Part shown: positions 29,981-38,375 of the stretch, one piece after another
Layout of the letters: each line of letters begins with the position of its first letter
How positions within the stretch are numbered: the stretch's first letter is position 1
From: Sunxiuqinia dokdonensis
GTDB taxonomy: Bacteria > Bacteroidota > Bacteroidia > Bacteroidales > Prolixibacteraceae
Direction of reading: 5' to 3'
Length of the DNA stretch: 47,463 bases
NCBI RefSeq assembly: GCF_001270965.1
Contig: NZ_LGIA01000165.1
Coordinates: 1 to 47,463 of the forward strand
The notes under the pieces: model-generated
The model's database searches: none
What the model was told of the DNA's origin: nothing
Seen by the model: the letters and a program-made list of their open reading frames with translations, nothing else
Position numbers and translations under genes: made by a program

Positions 29981-30379
29981 ATGCGACAGACTAAAGAAAA
30001 TCAACCCCTATTATTTGTGTCGGCCACCACACTTAGCCTGCTTGGCAGCGGTATTGGCCTGGTGCTTTTTGGCCTGGCGGCCCTGTTTTTCACTCCGGCA
30101 AAAGCCTGGGTGATCGGCATCACCAACTCGACCAGCATGGATCGGATAACACCTCTGTATTTTCTGCTATTTATGGCGCTTTGTTTGCTTTCGTTCGTGG
30201 GGGTCATCAAGATCAGAAAATGGCAAAAATCCGGATTGTTCTTCTACCTCGGCGCTCAGTTGGTCATGCTATTTCTTCCGGTTATTTGGCTCGACTGGAA
30301 CGCATTTTCAGTCAATAACCTCATTTTCACCACGATCTTCGTTTTTATTTATTTTTCCTTTTTCAACCGGATGGCCTAA
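29981..30379 (+). CDS. Small membrane protein, four helices
   Basis: 132-residue integral membrane protein of unknown function. Predicted helices lie near 17-38, 58-76, 85-103 and 111-128, with a short basic N-terminus and an RKWQK cluster between the second and third. No family motif is recognised. It precedes the large sensor-like gene on the same strand by 266 bp but with no evidence of a shared transcript. Confidence 0.65.
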   Translation: MRQTKENQPLLFVSATTLSLLGSGIGLVLFGLAALFFTPAKAWVIGITNSTSMDRITPLYFLLFMALCLLSFVGVIKIRKWQKSGLFFYLGAQLVMLFLPVIWLDWNAFSVNNLIFTTIFVFIYFSFFNRMA

Positions 30380-30585
30380 TTCAACAGTTAAACCAATACC
30401 ATACTTACGTTCAATTCATTATTTCTTCCAGCTTTGTCTGCCTCAATCATCAAGGATTGACACGGCTATACATTCCAATCTTTTGTGCGGTTTTTCGGCA
30501 TTCGACTCCCTTTTTCGAGCTGGCCATTCAACTGAACACAAACCAGATAAGCTTCAAAACCATTGACTTTCGCCCGCTATTGCCG

Positions 30586-30593
30586 TATATTTA
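30586..30593 (+). promoter_or_regulatory. Promoter-like site before the large membrane protein
   Basis: TATATTTA is one base from TAnnTTTG, with TTGAC about 20 bp upstream at 30563 as a -33 or sigma70-like -35. It lies 53 bp before the chosen ATG. Confidence 0.3.
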
Positions 30594-30645: not shown

Positions 30646-33600
30646 ATGAAAAATAAAGGGTTTCAACATATCAATTACATCAGCTGGATCGTCATTGTAC
30701 TATCCATTTCCGCACTTTACCTGTCCTATTTTTTCTTCTACATCCCTCAGCAAGAGTCGGTTCTTCAAGAACGCGCGTTTCGGATTCTCAAAGAATATGG
30801 GAATAACCTGTACGGAAAATTTGATTACTACCAGACCCATCTTAAAAACTACGGCGGCTACTACACCATCCGGGAGGAACTGAGAAGTGAATCGGCTTTG
30901 CAAGCCCACGACCGACTCAGACAGAAAGCGTTAAAAACGACCAAGGAGCCATCGGGTCGAACAAAGGAAATCTTGAATATTTACCGGGTGATTGGTAGTT
31001 TGGACGCCAGCATCGAAGCCGAGAAAATTTTGGAATCGCAAATGCCTGAAAATCCGGTTTTATCAGACGACAGAAAATACCTGATTATCCCGCATCGTCC
31101 TGAATTTAACATGATTCTGCCCAAAACGATTGACAACATCAATCAACAGCTCGACCAGAATTTTGATGCGCCCGGCCAGAATTTCATTTACAAGGTGCCT
31201 GTTGAAACCCTGATGGAGGGACTCAAATTTGACGGGCTTCTGGACAACATTATCCTATTTGACAAGACGATGGTGATTCACAATTCCCGACAAGATGTTA
31301 TTCATGACATCACCAACCCGGAAGCCCTGAGCGACAGCGCAGAAAATCATCAGGGTGGTGTAGTCGAAACCATGATGATTCAGGGAGAACGGCAACGAAT
31401 GATGATTCTTCCCATTGAATTTGCCAATGCAAAAATTTACTTGGCCGGGGCGATGCCCGCCACCGAGTTCAAGAAAAAAACACGCACAATTAACAGCCAG
31501 CTGTTGACGGTGATTTCGGCGGTTTTATTGCTTTTGCTGGTCAGCATTCCTGAACTGAAAATCATCATGATCAACCGACAGGAGCGCCTAAAAGTGTTCG
31601 ATGCCTACGGCACAATTATCTCGGTACTGATGAGCACTGCCCTGCTCATTCTGATCGCCATCAGCCTGTTGAAGCACCAGATTGAAGATAAAACGATTCA
31701 GCATAAGCGCGTTGAAATGGTTTCAGACACGCTCTACCAGAATGTAAGCTCCGACTTTCGTGCCCTTGTTGATCTTTACAAGGGAATCACCAACAAGGCG
31801 AATGCAGACTCCAGCAGTTTCTCGTTCTTTGTCCGCGAGTGCTTCAACTCAGAGGAAAATTTCGCCCAAATACCAGATCATTTTATTGGAAAACCGGTCC
31901 CCATCAACGAAATCATTTTAATCGACTCTGCCGGAATTGTTTCGAAAGCAGTGACCAAAACTGTTTTTTCAGATGCCGTAACGGTTGACCTCAGCCAACG
32001 TGGTTACTTTAAAAATGTGATTGCCCCCGAACGCAGCTGGCTGAATGCCGATCACGACCACTATTTTATCGAATCCATCAAGTCGTACAATACGGGTTAC
32101 CAGGAAACCGCGATTTCCTTTTTACTAAATGAACCGATCGAACCCAGTCGGGCCTCCGTGCTCGCCATCACCTCTCCTATTCCATCGCTCTATCATCAGA
32201 TTTTACCCAAAGACGTGAAGTTTTTAGTGATTGACGCGCAAGGCAATGTTTTATTCCATTCGACTCAATCGAAAAACCTGCATGAGAATTTTCTGGAGGA
32301 ATGCGATTTGGACGCCAAGCTGCTCAGCGCCATCAGGCTGCGGATAGCCGAAACCCTGCACTTGAGCTACAATGAAAAAGAATGGCTGGCCCGAATTAAA
32401 CCCATGGCCGATTCGCCACTGTATCACATTACCTTGCTGGATCATGATCGGATAGACAACCAAAACGCACGCATTTTTCTCTTCACCTTCTATTTTCTGA
32501 TCATTACGCTGCTTTGCACCGGCGTTGGGCTGTTGATTATGCGCTGGGCAAATGCCAAAAGCGACTTTCTGCAAATGCGCTGCTGGTCGCTGAGCTGGCT
32601 GCTGTTGCAAACTCAAAACTACCTGAAATACAAAGCGCTTATTTTAATTATGGGCGCCATACTCTTGTTTCAGGTGCTTGGCAGCTTTGCGATAGAAAAG
32701 CCTGTGACCATGCTGATTTATCAACTCATTTATATTAGCTATACCGGTTTTGTAGCGATGACCATTTTGGGGCGCAACAGCTCAAAATCCAAACAAGCCG
32801 ACATCAAATCATTCCGTGCCGCAGCCCTGGCCCTTGCCATCACAGGCTTGTTAATCATCCTGCTGCTTTGGAAGCTCGATCCGCAGCCCATTGTTATTCT
32901 TCCAATCATGCTTACCATCCTGCTTTCCGGGTTTACGTTTTACGTCACCAACGAGCGCTTTGCCAGCTTGCCGCAGCCCAAACGGCTTTTTGACAAACTT
33001 CCGCTAATTCCCTTTCGGTTGGGAGAAAGTCAGTCCATCAGGCAAATGGGCGGCGAACTTGCCTTTAGTCCTTCGTCACGCGCGGTTAAAAAAGTGTACA
33101 GCGCCTTTATGATTCTCTGGCTCACCTCCTTGTCGGTTGTGCCAGTCATTCAATATTACTGGGTAATTCAGAAACAAGAGGAACGAATTGCCAAATGGGA
33201 ACAAATGCAACACATCGCCTTCCAAAATCTAATCCTCTCCAAAGATTTCAAGGCGTTTAAACAGGAACCGTGGTATAAGAGAATTCAGGGCAACGGAATT
33301 GACAAACTTCAGGTTACCAGCCTCGACTCCAGCCGGGTAATAATTGATACCCAAGAAACAGACGAACACGAACATCTGCTGAACAGCGACCAAATCTACT
33401 CGCGGCTACCCGATTTAATTTCGAACGATGCCTACCTGATGACCTATCTGAAGGACCAGCATGCCATTGGACAACTGACCTCACCCGATGAACTGGAATA
33501 TTCCTACAGCGGTTTTGAAGGGATTATTCATACGAAACTTCCTGCTTACATCAAGTTAAGTTCAAACTATTGGCTTTTGTATCTCATATTGGCTACTTTG

Positions 33601-34794
33601 CTGGTTTCGCTGGTCATTTGGCAATTGTACCAATACATGGCCGAGAATATCCTCAATACCAATCCCGCCATTCGCATTGTGCCTGAAACCCATGGACTAA
33701 AAAGCCTTCTATTCAATTCAAAAATTAGACGCATTCTTCTGGATTCGTATGATGGCGAACATTGCCTTCGGCTTGTCAGCGAACTGATTGAAAAATCGGA
33801 TGCCCCTGATGACGGACAAAAACCATCGCTGGAAGTCATTCACACAGATAAACTGATTGAAGACAACTTTCAGCTCGATGATCTGCTGACAGGCCGTTCA
33901 AAAATTATTTGGATCAGCGATATCGACCAATGTATTCAGCACATCAAAAAACATGAGCTCATTCTGGGCAGGTTGATGCGATTGAACCAGCATGCTGAAG
34001 GAAAAGTAATCGTTGTGTTGCCGTTTGAGTTTGATTTCATCAACGAATATTACGACGATTATCTGACAGAAAATGAGCTGGAAAACGATGAAAGAACACA
34101 AATTTTTACCTGGCGAAGAACTTGGAAAAGTATTTTTAAGAGTTTCAGCAAATACTCGGGCTACTTTGTACCTGACAGCGAAACCGAGAATCTCAAAACG
34201 ACTATAGCAGACGATTCAAAAACGACCGCTGCAGCTCTCCCGAAGAAAGAGCCAGAAGACTACGGAAATTCTTTGTTCAACCAATCGGCTATTGAAAAAC
34301 AGTCGATTATGGATGGTAAAGATGAAAAGGGCCTGGAAGAACGGATTCTGGACATTGAATACAAAATGGAACCGCGCTATCATCACATTTGGAATAATCT
34401 GTGTCATATTGAAAAACTCATCCTGTTTGATTTGGCCGACGACGGAATTACCAACCTGAAAAACAAACACGTCATCAAGCGACTGGTAATAAAAGGCTTA
34501 ATCATTGCAGAACCGTATCCCCGGCTTTACACGCAAAGTTTTAAATACTTCATCAACAATGCCATCACCCCCGATGAGATTAAAAGTCTGGAGAGCAAAC
34601 TAAACCGCAAAGGCAGCTGGCATAACATGCGCTACCTGATTCTGCTGATTTTCATTATGCTTGCAGGCTTCGTGCTCATCTCTCAGGGAATTTCCATTGA
34701 AAAGGTGCTCGGAATTTTTGCAGGAATACTGGCCTTACTCTCCGGCGTGGTCCGGTTGTTCGATAGTGGCATGTTTCGATCAGCTGTCAAGTAA
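30646..34794 (+). CDS. Large orphan membrane protein with Cache-like sensor regions
   Basis: About 1,382 residues, function unknown. The ATG at 30646 is used; an in-frame GTG at 30637 would add three residues (numbering below counts from the GTG). Region 1: a membrane helix near 16-35, then an extracytoplasmic domain to about 285 with IILFDKTMVIHNS near 205. Helices follow near 288-310 and 325-345. Region 2 (about 350-610) resembles a double Cache domain: IILIDSAGIV near 426, DLSQRGYFKNV near 451 and FLVIDAQGNVLFHS near 529. A block of about six helices spans 612-770, with another at 822-845. A third extracytoplasmic segment (846-975) is closed by a helix at 976-998. The cytoplasmic part has a Walker B-like IIWISDIDQCI near 1090 but no P-loop, then a possible winged-helix near 1255-1310, and two C-terminal helices (1332-1374). 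No kinase, cyclase or methyl-accepting output is visible. Confidence 0.8.
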   Translation: MKNKGFQHINYISWIVIVLSISALYLSYFFFYIPQQESVLQERAFRILKEYGNNLYGKFDYYQTHLKNYGGYYTIREELRSESALQAHDRLRQKALKTTKEPSGRTKEILNIYRVIGSLDASIEAEKILESQMPENPVLSDDRKYLIIPHRPEFNMILPKTIDNINQQLDQNFDAPGQNFIYKVPVETLMEGLKFDGLLDNIILFDKTMVIHNSRQDVIHDITNPEALSDSAENHQGGVVETMMIQGERQRMMILPIEFANAKIYLAGAMPATEFKKKTRTINSQLLTVISAVLLLLLVSIPELKIIMINRQERLKVFDAYGTIISVLMSTALLILIAISLLKHQIEDKTIQHKRVEMVSDTLYQNVSSDFRALVDLYKGITNKANADSSSFSFFVRECFNSEENFAQIPDHFIGKPVPINEIILIDSAGIVSKAVTKTVFSDAVTVDLSQRGYFKNVIAPERSWLNADHDHYFIESIKSYNTGYQETAISFLLNEPIEPSRASVLAITSPIPSLYHQILPKDVKFLVIDAQGNVLFHSTQSKNLHENFLEECDLDAKLLSAIRLRIAETLHLSYNEKEWLARIKPMADSPLYHITLLDHDRIDNQNARIFLFTFYFLIITLLCTGVGLLIMRWANAKSDFLQMRCWSLSWLLLQTQNYLKYKALILIMGAILLFQVLGSFAIEKPVTMLIYQLIYISYTGFVAMTILGRNSSKSKQADIKSFRAAALALAITGLLIILLLWKLDPQPIVILPIMLTILLSGFTFYVTNERFASLPQPKRLFDKLPLIPFRLGESQSIRQMGGELAFSPSSRAVKKVYSAFMILWLTSLSVVPVIQYYWVIQKQEERIAKWEQMQHIAFQNLILSKDFKAFKQEPWYKRIQGNGIDKLQVTSLDSSRVIIDTQETDEHEHLLNSDQIYSRLPDLISNDAYLMTYLKDQHAIGQLTSPDELEYSYSGFEGIIHTKLPAYIKLSSNYWLLYLILATLLVSLVIWQLYQYMAENILNTNPAIRIVPETHGLKSLLFNSKIRRILLDSYDGEHCLRLVSELIEKSDAPDDGQKPSLEVIHTDKLIEDNFQLDDLLTGRSKIIWISDIDQCIQHIKKHELILGRLMRLNQHAEGKVIVVLPFEFDFINEYYDDYLTENELENDERTQIFTWRRTWKSIFKSFSKYSGYFVPDSETENLKTTIADDSKTTAAALPKKEPEDYGNSLFNQSAIEKQSIMDGKDEKGLEERILDIEYKMEPRYHHIWNNLCHIEKLILFDLADDGITNLKNKHVIKRLVIKGLIIAEPYPRLYTQSFKYFINNAITPDEIKSLESKLNRKGSWHNMRYLILLIFIMLAGFVLISQGISIEKVLGIFAGILALLSGVVRLFDSGMFRSAVK

Positions 34795-34815: not shown

Positions 34816-36591
34816 TCACTCGTGCGAGAAGGTACGAACAGTTTTTCTGTAGTCGGTAAATACGGTTGCCCTCGAAATAAAACCGATGTATTTTCCATCG
34901 TCGATCACCGCCAGATTGTATCGGCCGCTGGTCTCAAATTTTTCGGCCACGGTATGCATGGTATCATTCGGCGAAATAAAAAACTCGGGCATATACATCA
35001 AATCCTTAACAAAAACGGTATCGTAAAGCTCCTGCTTAAAAACAATATCGCGAATGTCATTCATTTTCACCATCCCTTTCAGCATGCCATCCTGATCGAC
35101 CACCGGAAACAGGTCGCGTTTTGAGCGGGAAATCGCCTGTACCAGATCGCCCAGTGTCGCTGCCGGATCAATAATTTCCAGGTCGGTTTCAATCAGTTCA
35201 CCCACTTCCATAAAGTGCAACACGGCTTTGTCCTTATGATGCGTAACCAATTGTCCCTCTTCGGCCAGGCGTTTGGTATAAATTGAATGCGGCTCAAACC
35301 GCATGATGGTGATGTAGGCCGCCAAAGCCGAAATTATCAACGGGAAGAAAAGCTCGTAACCGCCTGTAATCTCCGCCGTCAGAAAGATCCCAAGCAATGG
35401 CGCATGCATCACACCGGCCATCATGGCACTCATTCCGGCCAATGCGAAATTATCCAGGGGCAAATTCAATCCAAAAAGCAAGTTCAGGAAAAAAGCGATG
35501 AAGTATCCGCCTATGGCGCCAACAAACAAAGTGGGTGCAAAAATACCACCAATTCCACCGCTAGCCGTAGTTACCGACATGGCAATAACCTTGAAAAAGA
35601 GCAACGAGAGCAAAAACACCACAAAAAACCAGGGATTATCGCGAAATCCGTAAAACATGGAATTGTCCAGCAAGCTCAATCCCATGTCGTTGAACACTTT
35701 GTTGATGGAAGAATATCCTTCACCCCAAAGCGGCGGAAATACAAAAATAAGTACGCCAAGCGCTATTCCGCCATACAACAACCTTGAAATCTGTCGTTTA
35801 ACGCCTTTCATTCGTCGCTCAATCCACATGGTCACCCGGGTAAAGTAGAGCGAAAACAAGCCGGCAAAAATGCCCAGCAAAATGTAAAAAGGAATATTGG
35901 AAGCATCGAAAGAATGAATGACGTTGAATTTAAACAAAACGGCATCGCCCATGAAATAGACGGCAATGACCGCGGCGGTAATTCCGGAAATCAAAAGTGG
36001 CACCAATGAGGCCATGGTCAGGTCAAGCATCAGCACTTCGAGCGTAAAAACAATACCTGCAATGGGAGCCTTGAAAATGCCCGCAATCGCACCCGTTGCT
36101 CCACAACCAATCATCAGCATAATATCAGCTTGCCCAAGCTTGAAAAAACGCCCCAGGTTTGAACCAATTGCCGCACCGGTTAATACGACAGGCGCCTCGG
36201 CCCCTACCGAACCGCCGAAACCAATGGTAAAGCTACTGGTGATCATGGACGAGAATGAGTTATGCGGCTTAATTTTCCCCTTGTCCAGCGAGATCGATTT
36301 CAAGATTTTGGAAACACCGTGCCCAATATCATCTTTCACAAAAAACCGGATAATTAAAAGGGTAATGATGATGCCAATCACGGGAAGTGCTAGATACCAA
36401 TAATTTTCGGTTGTAATTACCGAATGCCCGACCAGCCGCGTATCAATAAAATGGATTAGATTTTTAAGGGTCAGCGCAGCCAAACCGCTAACCACACCAA
36501 TGATAAAACTGATCCAGTACAACTTTTTTGCACCCATCAACTGCTTAGCCAATGTATCCAGCTTCAACTTTTTTATACTCAACATGCTCAT
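34816..36591 (-). CDS. ClC-type chloride channel with CBS pair (second of tandem pair)
   Basis: 591-residue voltage-gated chloride channel family protein. The membrane domain carries GSVGAEAP (gating Glu region), KAPIAGIVFTLEVLM and GGIFAPTLF, the selectivity-filter motifs. At the site aligned with proton glutamate E203 of ClC-ec1 the residue is Val (LEV), as in channel-type ClCs. Two CBS motifs fill about 450-580. It starts 2 bp after the stop of its paralogue. It would carry chloride or another anion across the inner membrane; channel versus exchanger is inferred from the one residue only. Confidence 0.9.
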   Translation of the reverse strand: MSMLSIKKLKLDTLAKQLMGAKKLYWISFIIGVVSGLAALTLKNLIHFIDTRLVGHSVITTENYWYLALPVIGIIITLLIIRFFVKDDIGHGVSKILKSISLDKGKIKPHNSFSSMITSSFTIGFGGSVGAEAPVVLTGAAIGSNLGRFFKLGQADIMLMIGCGATGAIAGIFKAPIAGIVFTLEVLMLDLTMASLVPLLISGITAAVIAVYFMGDAVLFKFNVIHSFDASNIPFYILLGIFAGLFSLYFTRVTMWIERRMKGVKRQISRLLYGGIALGVLIFVFPPLWGEGYSSINKVFNDMGLSLLDNSMFYGFRDNPWFFVVFLLSLLFFKVIAMSVTTASGGIGGIFAPTLFVGAIGGYFIAFFLNLLFGLNLPLDNFALAGMSAMMAGVMHAPLLGIFLTAEITGGYELFFPLIISALAAYITIMRFEPHSIYTKRLAEEGQLVTHHKDKAVLHFMEVGELIETDLEIIDPAATLGDLVQAISRSKRDLFPVVDQDGMLKGMVKMNDIRDIVFKQELYDTVFVKDLMYMPEFFISPNDTMHTVAEKFETSGRYNLAVIDDGKYIGFISRATVFTDYRKTVRTFSHE

Positions 36592-36593
36592 CT

Positions 36594-38375
36594 TTATTCG
36601 TGTGAAAAGTCAGCCATTTTTTTCCGGTAGAAAGAAAAAACCCGGGCTCTCGAAATAAAACCAATGTATATACCCTGATCGATGACAGCCAAATTATACC
36701 GACCGCTCGATTCAAATTTTTCCACGACCTGTTCCATCGAATCGGTTGTAGAAATTGAATGTTCGGGCAGGTACATTAAGTGGCTTACGTGCACCTTATC
36801 GTACAATTCCTGCCTGAATATCAGATGCCTCACATCGTCCATCTTCACCATTCCCTTGAGGTAACCATCTTCGTCAACAATTGGAAACAGGTTCCGGTGC
36901 GCTTTTGAAATGGCGTCCGTAAGATCTCTCAAAGTAGAATCAGACCGTAAAACAACAAAGTCTGTCTCAACAAGCTTTTTTACTTCCATCATCCGGATGA
37001 TATTTAAATCTTTATCATGAGTCATGAGCTCCTTGCGCTTAGCCAACTGAATATGATAAACCGAATTGGGTGTAAACGCCTTCACTGTAAGGTAGGCAAA
37101 AGTAGCCACAATCATCAGCGGTACAAATAACTTGTAGCCACCCGAAATATCAGCAATCAAAAAAATTCCGGTTAAAGGTGCCTGCAGCACACCGGCAATT
37201 AGTCCGGCCATGCCTATTAAAGCAAAATTATTGATGCTCAACTGCTTCACTCCGGTCATGTTGATAAATTGGGCGAATAACATCCCGGTATTCACGCCCA
37301 TAAACAAGGTTGGCGCAAAGATACCACCGATACCGCCCGCTCCAAATGTCAGGGTGGTGGCAATAATTTTCAAAAGAACAACTGCAGCCAGAAGCATAAA
37401 TACGCTCCAATACTGATCTTTCAACTCAAAAAACAGCGAGTTATCATACAGGTAAGTCAAATCGCCTTCCAAGCACTTATTAATAGCTTCGTAGCCTTCA
37501 CCGTAAAGCGATGGGAAAAAGAAAATCAGAGCGCCAAGCCCGATACCGCCAACAGCGAGGCGATTCCATTTGCTTTGAATGCCTTCGAAAATATTTTCAA
37601 CACTCAAATACATTTTGGTGAAATAGGCCGAAACAAGGCCGGCAAAAATGCCCAGCAAAATGTAGTAGGGCAAATCGCTCATTTCGAAACTGGTCTCAAC
37701 CGAAAAGGGATACAGCACGTCTTGCCCCATGAAAAAGTACGAAGTGAGCACGGCAGCCGACGAAGCCAGCAGCAGCGGAACCAGTGAAAAAACGGTCAAG
37801 TCGATCATGATGACCTCAACGGCAAAAACGATGGCGGCAATGGGTGCTTTAAAAATGGCAGCCATGGCGCCTGCTGCAGCACAAGCCAACATCAGAATGG
37901 TATTCTTGTAGTTCAAACGAGCCACCCGCGAAATCCACGATCCGTAAGCCGCGCCGGTAGCCACAGTTGGCCCCTCCAACCCAACAGAACCGCCAAAGCC
38001 AACCGTAAATGCCGAGGTTAACACCGATGAGAACAAATTATGTCGGCTCAGTTCGCCACGCCGTCGGGATAGGCTGTGCAAAACGTTGGGAATTCCGTGC
38101 CTGACCGGACTTTTTATGAGGTAATTGACGATTAAAACAGCTACGAAGATTCCAATGATCGGAAGAATGAAATAGCTGTAGTGCTCCACATTATTTCCTG
38201 TGGTCAGGGTATGCACCAACCGCTCGGTAAGCCACACCGCATTTTTGATAAGCGTAGCAGCAAGCCCGGCAATAATACCAATTACCACACTTAAAATCAC
38301 CACAAAACGACGTTCGCTCAAATGTCGTAAACGCCAACGGTGAAAACGCACAATCAAGGGCAACTTGTTTTCCAT
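36594..38375 (-). CDS. ClC-type chloride channel with CBS pair (first of tandem pair)
   Basis: 593-residue paralogue, upstream in the same operon. It has GSVGLEGP, KAPIAAIVFAVEVIM and GGIFAPTLFMG. As in its partner the E203-equivalent is Val (VEV). The CBS region contains VDEDGYLKGMVKMDDV and ends YIGFISRARVFSFYR. The two proteins are clearly duplicates, sharing their C-terminal ending pattern (FSHE). A -7 element lies a few bases before the ATG, so this is the first gene and the transcript is near-leaderless. Confidence 0.9.
   Translation of the reverse strand: MENKLPLIVRFHRWRLRHLSERRFVVILSVVIGIIAGLAATLIKNAVWLTERLVHTLTTGNNVEHYSYFILPIIGIFVAVLIVNYLIKSPVRHGIPNVLHSLSRRRGELSRHNLFSSVLTSAFTVGFGGSVGLEGPTVATGAAYGSWISRVARLNYKNTILMLACAAAGAMAAIFKAPIAAIVFAVEVIMIDLTVFSLVPLLLASSAAVLTSYFFMGQDVLYPFSVETSFEMSDLPYYILLGIFAGLVSAYFTKMYLSVENIFEGIQSKWNRLAVGGIGLGALIFFFPSLYGEGYEAINKCLEGDLTYLYDNSLFFELKDQYWSVFMLLAAVVLLKIIATTLTFGAGGIGGIFAPTLFMGVNTGMLFAQFINMTGVKQLSINNFALIGMAGLIAGVLQAPLTGIFLIADISGGYKLFVPLMIVATFAYLTVKAFTPNSVYHIQLAKRKELMTHDKDLNIIRMMEVKKLVETDFVVLRSDSTLRDLTDAISKAHRNLFPIVDEDGYLKGMVKMDDVRHLIFRQELYDKVHVSHLMYLPEHSISTTDSMEQVVEKFESSGRYNLAVIDQGIYIGFISRARVFSFYRKKMADFSHE

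Follow-up and report, generated by a model that had tools for sequence, protein, structure and literature searches.

A rare Bacteroidota family of very large membrane proteins with a predicted dCache sensor and a putative NTPase-like core lacking a P-loop

Among the extracellular sensors of prokaryotes, Cache domains have been described as the largest superfamily, and the text of a 2016 census describes known signalling outputs in all Cache families except SMP_2, sorted into the classes it labels HK, MCP, GCD, AC, SP, STK, IC and TF (PMC4822843). By its own description the census gathered proteins by known outputs (PMC4822843), so that further outputs may have escaped it. Inactive STAND proteins (iSTAND) are reported from MoxR-vWA systems (Kaur et al. 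2020, PMC7159879), a paper whose main text does not contain the word Cache. Within the partial coverage of our literature searches, no paper links Cache with STAND, nSTAND, AAA ATPase or an inactive nucleoside triphosphatase (NTPase). Here we describe a gene at positions 30646 to 34794 (+ strand) of a 47,463-nucleotide stretch of the Sunxiuqinia dokdonensis genome (contig NZ_LGIA01000165.1; the window). The gene is one open reading frame (ORF) without an internal stop, encoding a protein of 1382 aa counted from its ATG (P0001); a GTG nine bases 5′ of the ATG is a possible alternative start. P0001 belongs to a rare Bacteroidota family of real, very large membrane proteins for which we found no description in the literature, looser searches by title and abstract included.

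We propose, at about even odds (roughly 0.5), that P0001 is a transmembrane receptor in which dCache input would pass through a pseudo-NTPase coupler to a winged-helix/hairpin output without nucleoside triphosphate (NTP) hydrolysis. The sequence-only reading had taken P0001 for an orphan, very long polytopic protein with three extracytoplasmic regions. Hydropathy and two structure models agree with the anatomy: large regions at about residues 36–282, 346–602 and 836–974 lie on the dCache side, and there is a central four-helix bundle, with the C-terminal part on the opposite side of the membrane and a terminal hairpin. Hydropathy gives 11 to 13 membrane segments in the seven proteins scanned (12 in P0002 and P0003); in P0001 it finds 12, including one overlapping pair, but misses a helix at 686–708 seen in the model. 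Orphan status is ruled out by relatives found in the order, the phylum and a one-genome-per-species collection: 26 distinct proteins including P0001 share the layout, and the relatives align over their full length. As had been read from the sequence, no known output domain is present. A Pfam scan of P0001 gave no match except DUF3040 (E 0.067), and thus no kinase, cyclase, GGDEF, HAMP or transporter family, and none of the ten family members scanned (0/10) has a known output domain such as a kinase, MCP, GGDEF or cyclase.

The second extracytoplasmic region (residues 346–602, 31681–32451, + strand, as are all features of the gene given below) is assigned to dCache by Pfam dCache_1 and by Foldseek. 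Both strings on which a double-Cache sensor had been proposed are present: DLSQRGYFK (residues 448–456, 31987–32013) and FLVIDAQGNVLFHS (residues 526–539, 32221–32262), the latter covering the membrane-proximal Cache strands. In the alignment, R452 of the first string is invariant (26/26) and Y454 is found in 25/26, with F in P0008. The dCache_1 profile matches 7 of 21 members at E ≤ 0.1, with a best value of 8.6e-12. The model of residues 1–700 (predicted local distance difference test, pLDDT, 77.5; predicted template modelling score, pTM, 0.70) has a double PAS-like fold with a long first helix between two membrane helices. With this model Foldseek found 127 PDB matches at E ≤ 0.001; among the matches listed, 44/50 are by title bacterial kinase, chemoreceptor or cyclase sensor domains, the aligned Cache region not being part of the listing, and the others are calcium-channel entries (4/50) or of other kinds (2/50). 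A PDB search with the N-terminal profile reached a designed helical bundle at 0.0033 and a dCache sensor at 0.33. By fold the family bears a dCache domain, and it would work like a dCache receptor. Region 1 (residues 36–282, 30751–31491), a long helix followed by a sheet that looks Cache-like by eye in the model, is probably a second, smaller Cache-like unit; a profile comparison with region 2 is suggestive (E 0.027). Region 3 (residues 836–974, 33151–33567) has no known domain, is poorly modelled and shows no similarity to regions 1 and 2. In one relative, P0010 (locus L048), residues of about 392–461 within the dCache region carry a repeated stretch of the DSTEFDSIRL type that matches a pentapeptide-repeat model at 3.8e-4.

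Inside the cell, model, Foldseek and alignment point to a P-loop-NTPase-like (AAA+/STAND-like) core without a P-loop (residues 1027–1176, 33724–34173). Its first strand and the site of the lost P-loop (RRILLDSYDGEHC) lie at 33727–33765, the Walker-B-like strand IIWISDIDQCI (residues 1087–1097) at 33904–33936 and the sensor-1-like strand VIVVLPFEFDF (residues 1121–1131) at 34006–34038; all three line up across the relatives. A motif scan rules out an intact P-loop elsewhere in the chain of P0001: there is no [AG]x4GK[ST], and the GxxxxGK at residue 52 has F as its next residue and belongs to the helical extension of the first membrane segment. The absence of GxxxxGK[ST] noted earlier for P0001 extends to all proteins that have the core (0/24), and relatives having the dCache region likewise lack the P-loop. 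The sole canonical motif among the 26 proteins is at residue 209 of P0010, in the first extracytoplasmic region. Since near-P-loops stand at the P-loop position in two relatives, GSPGSGKL in P0007 (locus L045) and GIPNSGRNT in L057, the core reads as a decayed NTPase that would once have worked. In the tree L057 groups with the clade of the window protein (0.842) and P0007 comes next (support only 0.165). Given its STAND/AAA+ likeness and the missing P-loop, we class P0001 as a derived relative of STAND/AAA+ proteins, probably inactive, and not as a STAND NTPase. The NTPase-like core of the sequence-only reading is therefore retained in its Walker-B-like and sensor-1-like strands, while the fold itself is weakly suggested, by the structural matches given below.

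The core is followed by a winged-helix-like segment (residues 1231–1306, 34336–34563; helices and short strands in the model) and a C-terminal two-helix membrane hairpin (residues 1331–1372, 34636–34761), in the order anticipated from the sequence and in agreement with model and hydropathy. Conservation across the family is highest in the winged-helix-like segment, with a mean pairwise identity of 34%; this identity is 30% in the hairpin and 28% in helices 2–3 and the dCache domain, and it falls to 21% in region 1, 18% in the core, 17% in the central bundle and 16% in region 3, the figures for the core and the other variable parts depending on an uncertain alignment. No alignment column of the core reaches 85%. 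In two members, P0008 and L056, the core is absent (29 and 19 residues, compared with 131–204) and the winged helix and hairpin are retained. Because it is poorly conserved and missing in 2/26, the pseudo-ATPase is unlikely to be an essential output; of the earlier proposal of a sensor whose output is a pseudo-ATPase scaffold, the sensor and the P-loop-less core stand and the scaffold's role as essential output falls away. With winged helix, hairpin and dCache best conserved and the core poorly conserved and sometimes absent, the winged helix and hairpin are the likely output, and the core would be a coupling module that has decayed. A winged-helix/hairpin profile gave six clear matches in 5/218 genomes, all in full-length family members, and six further matches at E 0.002–0.008 that cover 43–75 of 137 positions and, in four cases, contain stops. 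The hairpin has a weak match to DUF3040 (0.0079), and HpsJ matches weakly (1.7e-4) in one of four members.

From the succession of core, winged helix and hairpin, it follows that both ends of the cytoplasmic module are tethered to the membrane. On binding a small molecule, the dCache domain would shift the membrane helices, and the shift would be relayed to the winged-helix/hairpin unit by the pseudo-NTPase, a hinge or docking piece that would not hydrolyse NTP. The winged-helix/hairpin unit may in turn act on a partner protein that it touches, or by a change in the membrane. As the nucleotide-binding loop is missing, signalling probably consumes no ATP. We suggest more tentatively, and consider it doubtful as a whole, that the family represents a receptor class with a STAND-type switch emptied of nucleotide chemistry, in which dCache drives the winged helix and hairpin directly and the NTPase relic is a coupler that one lineage has dropped.

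Several results weigh against the receptor reading, beginning with the alignment on which the low identity of the core depends. The dCache_1 match of P0001 itself has an E-value of 0.0038 over residues 421–591 and scores 17.2 bits, compared with a Pfam gathering cut-off of 45. The model of residues 640–1382 is weak (pLDDT 67.3, pTM 0.45), although the ten-residue blocks over 1020–1169 score 80–87 except one at 64. Foldseek matches to this model all have E above 0.001, the best reaching 0.025, and low template modelling scores. P0007 matches nSTAND1 from the P-loop to sensor 1 (20.9 bits, 3.1e-4), under the Pfam cut-off of 27.1 and in this one member only. The winged-helix assignment comes from the model, and the segment taken alone has no match to a solved winged helix. 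P0008 and L056 group as sisters (support 1.000), which lets a single deletion account for both losses of the core, and low conservation of a part is no proof that the part is idle.

The core might also bind nucleotide through a non-canonical loop and serve as a slow or non-hydrolysing switch, which would likewise count against the receptor reading. The loops of P0007 and L057 fit such a switch, as does P0001 itself, which alone among the 24 core-bearing proteins has D at both Walker-B-type positions: the first (1092) is D in P0001 only, and the second (1094) is D or E in 14/24. We regard this as improbable, since 22/24 lack a near-canonical loop and 2/26 dispense with the core.

The sampling bears on how the family is distributed. 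Among 61 relatives searched, three matched: the genome itself; G006 of the same genus, with an 86-residue C-terminal remnant containing one stop (L019:4843–5100); and G059 (L003), which was dropped as chance with four stops within the match. In the order, P0001 alone matched 6/393 genomes, and a four-row profile matched 5/393, namely itself, G207, G272, G365 and a C-terminal remnant in G411. The C-terminal end is thus the surviving part in both remnants. In G411 the remnant (L018:7856–8320) spans winged helix and hairpin in 154 codons without a stop, and it might work alone. The phylum search matched 10/395: the genome itself, three weakly (G598, G738, G429), and six in which a large ORF covers the match (G546, G562, G595, G635, G704, G773); G564 matched weakly in other profile searches. 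The full-length gene is therefore rare, in 3/392 other genomes of the order and 6/394 others of the phylum. In the one-genome-per-species collection P0001 alone found nothing, and a five-row alignment gave 237 pattern matches, from which 20 loci were confirmed. These include Maribellus (3), Cyclobacterium (2), Gracilimonas, Niastella, a Mariniphaga metagenome-assembled genome (MAG), six MAGs titled Bacteroidales and one titled Ignavibacteriae (G773, same phylum). Four loci (L050, L054, L064, L065) duplicate P0003, P0006, P0002 and P0009 and were dropped before counting. The 26 distinct proteins aligned are 1159–1551 aa long, 25 of them whole and L053 cut at its C-terminal end; some family alignments took in 14 to 21 members. 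A further member (L079:4141–7704), 39% identical to P0011, stands outside the 26.

No second copy was found in the 4.96 Mb genome by searches that included C-terminal and dCache profiles. A phage or plasmid origin was rejected, with no match at E 0.01 among 72,556 plasmid or 50,697 phage records; the G+C of the gene resembles that of the surrounding DNA. Upstream of the gene, a TTG and, at a 20-bp spacing, TATATTTA (30563–30593) resemble the Bacteroidetes promoter and form a candidate promoter. On the 5′ side a 132-aa membrane-protein ORF (29981–30379, +), probably with four helices, lies between a tRNA-editing gene and the 1382-aa gene; it is 55% identical to its counterpart at the same place in G005, and is recognized in G001 and G004 by size and position. 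On the 3′ side a CLC channel gene lies on the opposite strand. Positions 34816–38375 (−) hold two adjacent CLC chloride-channel genes with CBS domains, a pair that recurs by size in G001 and G005. The tRNA-editing gene allowed four of the six other genomes of the genus to be placed at the locus, G002 and G003 being the exceptions. Of the four, G001, G004 and G005 lack the gene there, and a remnant is left in G006. The CLC proteins beside the locus in G004 and G005 are 81% identical to that of the window, and that of G001 was judged by size. In G005 104 bp separate the flanking ORFs; in G001 a LytTR-type regulator and a desaturase-like gene (by eye) are in place.

Rare and patchy occurrence with decay would also suit a stress or anti-phage effector in which the Cache domains receive the input and triggering of the STAND-like part makes the C-terminal hairpin damage the membrane. 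Neighbours were compared at 20 loci, with 93/100 neighbour ORFs scanned plus three from L045 and L048 (two scans, each listing 25 families without naming the matching member). Defence-type genes adjoin some relatives. PADLOC phospholipase effector models match a patatin-like phospholipase gene (L045:4035–5345) whose end lies 11 bp ahead of P0007, the relative with the best-preserved P-loop; a TIR-STING gene (L055:10918–11955) lies about 345 bp downstream of another relative, the gene after it being amidase-like by eye and not a cyclase; a split type ISP restriction gene, its families attributed by eye, lies about 1 kb before the relative at L054 on the other strand; and a Tle1-like lipase gene lies 53 bp before P0010. 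These genes are a lead only. No such neighbour recurs, and none holds a constant position in the family as a whole; the ten neighbours scanned in the window have metabolic, cell-wall or channel functions or are uncharacterised; and PADLOC at E ≤ 0.1 gave no match for P0001, P0002, P0003 or P0007, with weak ones for P0006 (HEC-02B, 4.9e-5, first 106 residues) and P0010 (0.035). We therefore find an effector unlikely. Nineteen neighbour families do recur, 12 of them confined to Maribellus (L059, L068, L069) or Cyclobacterium (L061, L066). The remaining seven are each shared by two or three loci: L050, L060 and L063 have a D-Ala-D-Ala-ligase-type family in common, L060 and L063 also the family next to it, and five further families are found in pairs of loci at differing distances. 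L060:10996–12540 and L063:4074–6549 share a downstream gene run that includes the D-Ala-D-Ala-ligase-type family.

A different Rossmann-like fold for the alpha/beta core, of receiver or TIR type, in place of an NTPase relic is quite improbable. It would explain why Foldseek returned no significant match, and it could draw on one TIR domain among the 50 matches listed and on a phmmer match of residues 1070–1133 to a receiver domain at E 1.7. Nevertheless, among the matches listed from 474 at E ≤ 10, 49/50 are P-loop NTPases (45 AAA+ or STAND, 3 adenylate kinases and 1 thymidylate kinase), sorted by title or, for a few chains such as 2ce7 and 5he8, by presumed protein identity. The near-P-loops at the expected place and the nSTAND1 match also argue for an NTPase origin. 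By sequence, the P0007 core reached adenylate kinase 5 in the PDB at E 1, and PDB searches with whole P0001, its profile and C-terminal profiles gave nothing significant (lowest 0.016, a histone chaperone). A working transporter or channel in the central membrane bundle (four helices, residues 656–774, 32611–32967, by model and hydropathy), merely regulated by the Cache and cytoplasmic parts, would account for four helices and a third extracytoplasmic region beyond the needs of a plain receptor, but it is very unlikely for a part that is among the least conserved, varies from 54 to 132 residues and has one column at 85%, in a protein without a transporter family.

A receptor class with an emptied STAND-type switch, if real, would be a new output type for dCache sensors. 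The joining of a dCache sensor to a decayed STAND module would show a nucleotide switch turning into a plain coupler, with the stages of decay (near-P-loop, no P-loop, no domain) surviving in living relatives. A family of very large hypothetical genes would also gain a testable anatomy.

Three described systems come closest. The iSTAND proteins of MoxR-vWA systems, as presented in their description (PMC7159879), share a catalytically inactive STAND domain as conserved core and adjoin MoxR and vWA genes, whereas neither is among the ten scanned neighbours of P0001. With nSTAND1/STAND and AAA+ NTPases (Hda, ORC, DnaA, Avs4) the family appears to share the order of strands and helices along the chain and a winged-helix-like segment after the core, a succession on which the model and the Foldseek list agree without a match at E ≤ 0.001; two relatives of P0001 keep a near-P-loop, and one matches nSTAND1. 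It differs from them in that 24/24 lack a canonical P-loop, 10/24 lack D or E at the second Walker-B-type position and 2/26 lack the core. The dCache sensors of kinases, chemoreceptors and cyclases have the same double Cache between membrane helices with a long first helix; unlike them, the P0001 family carries no known output domain, and has further extracytoplasmic regions and about 12 membrane helices.

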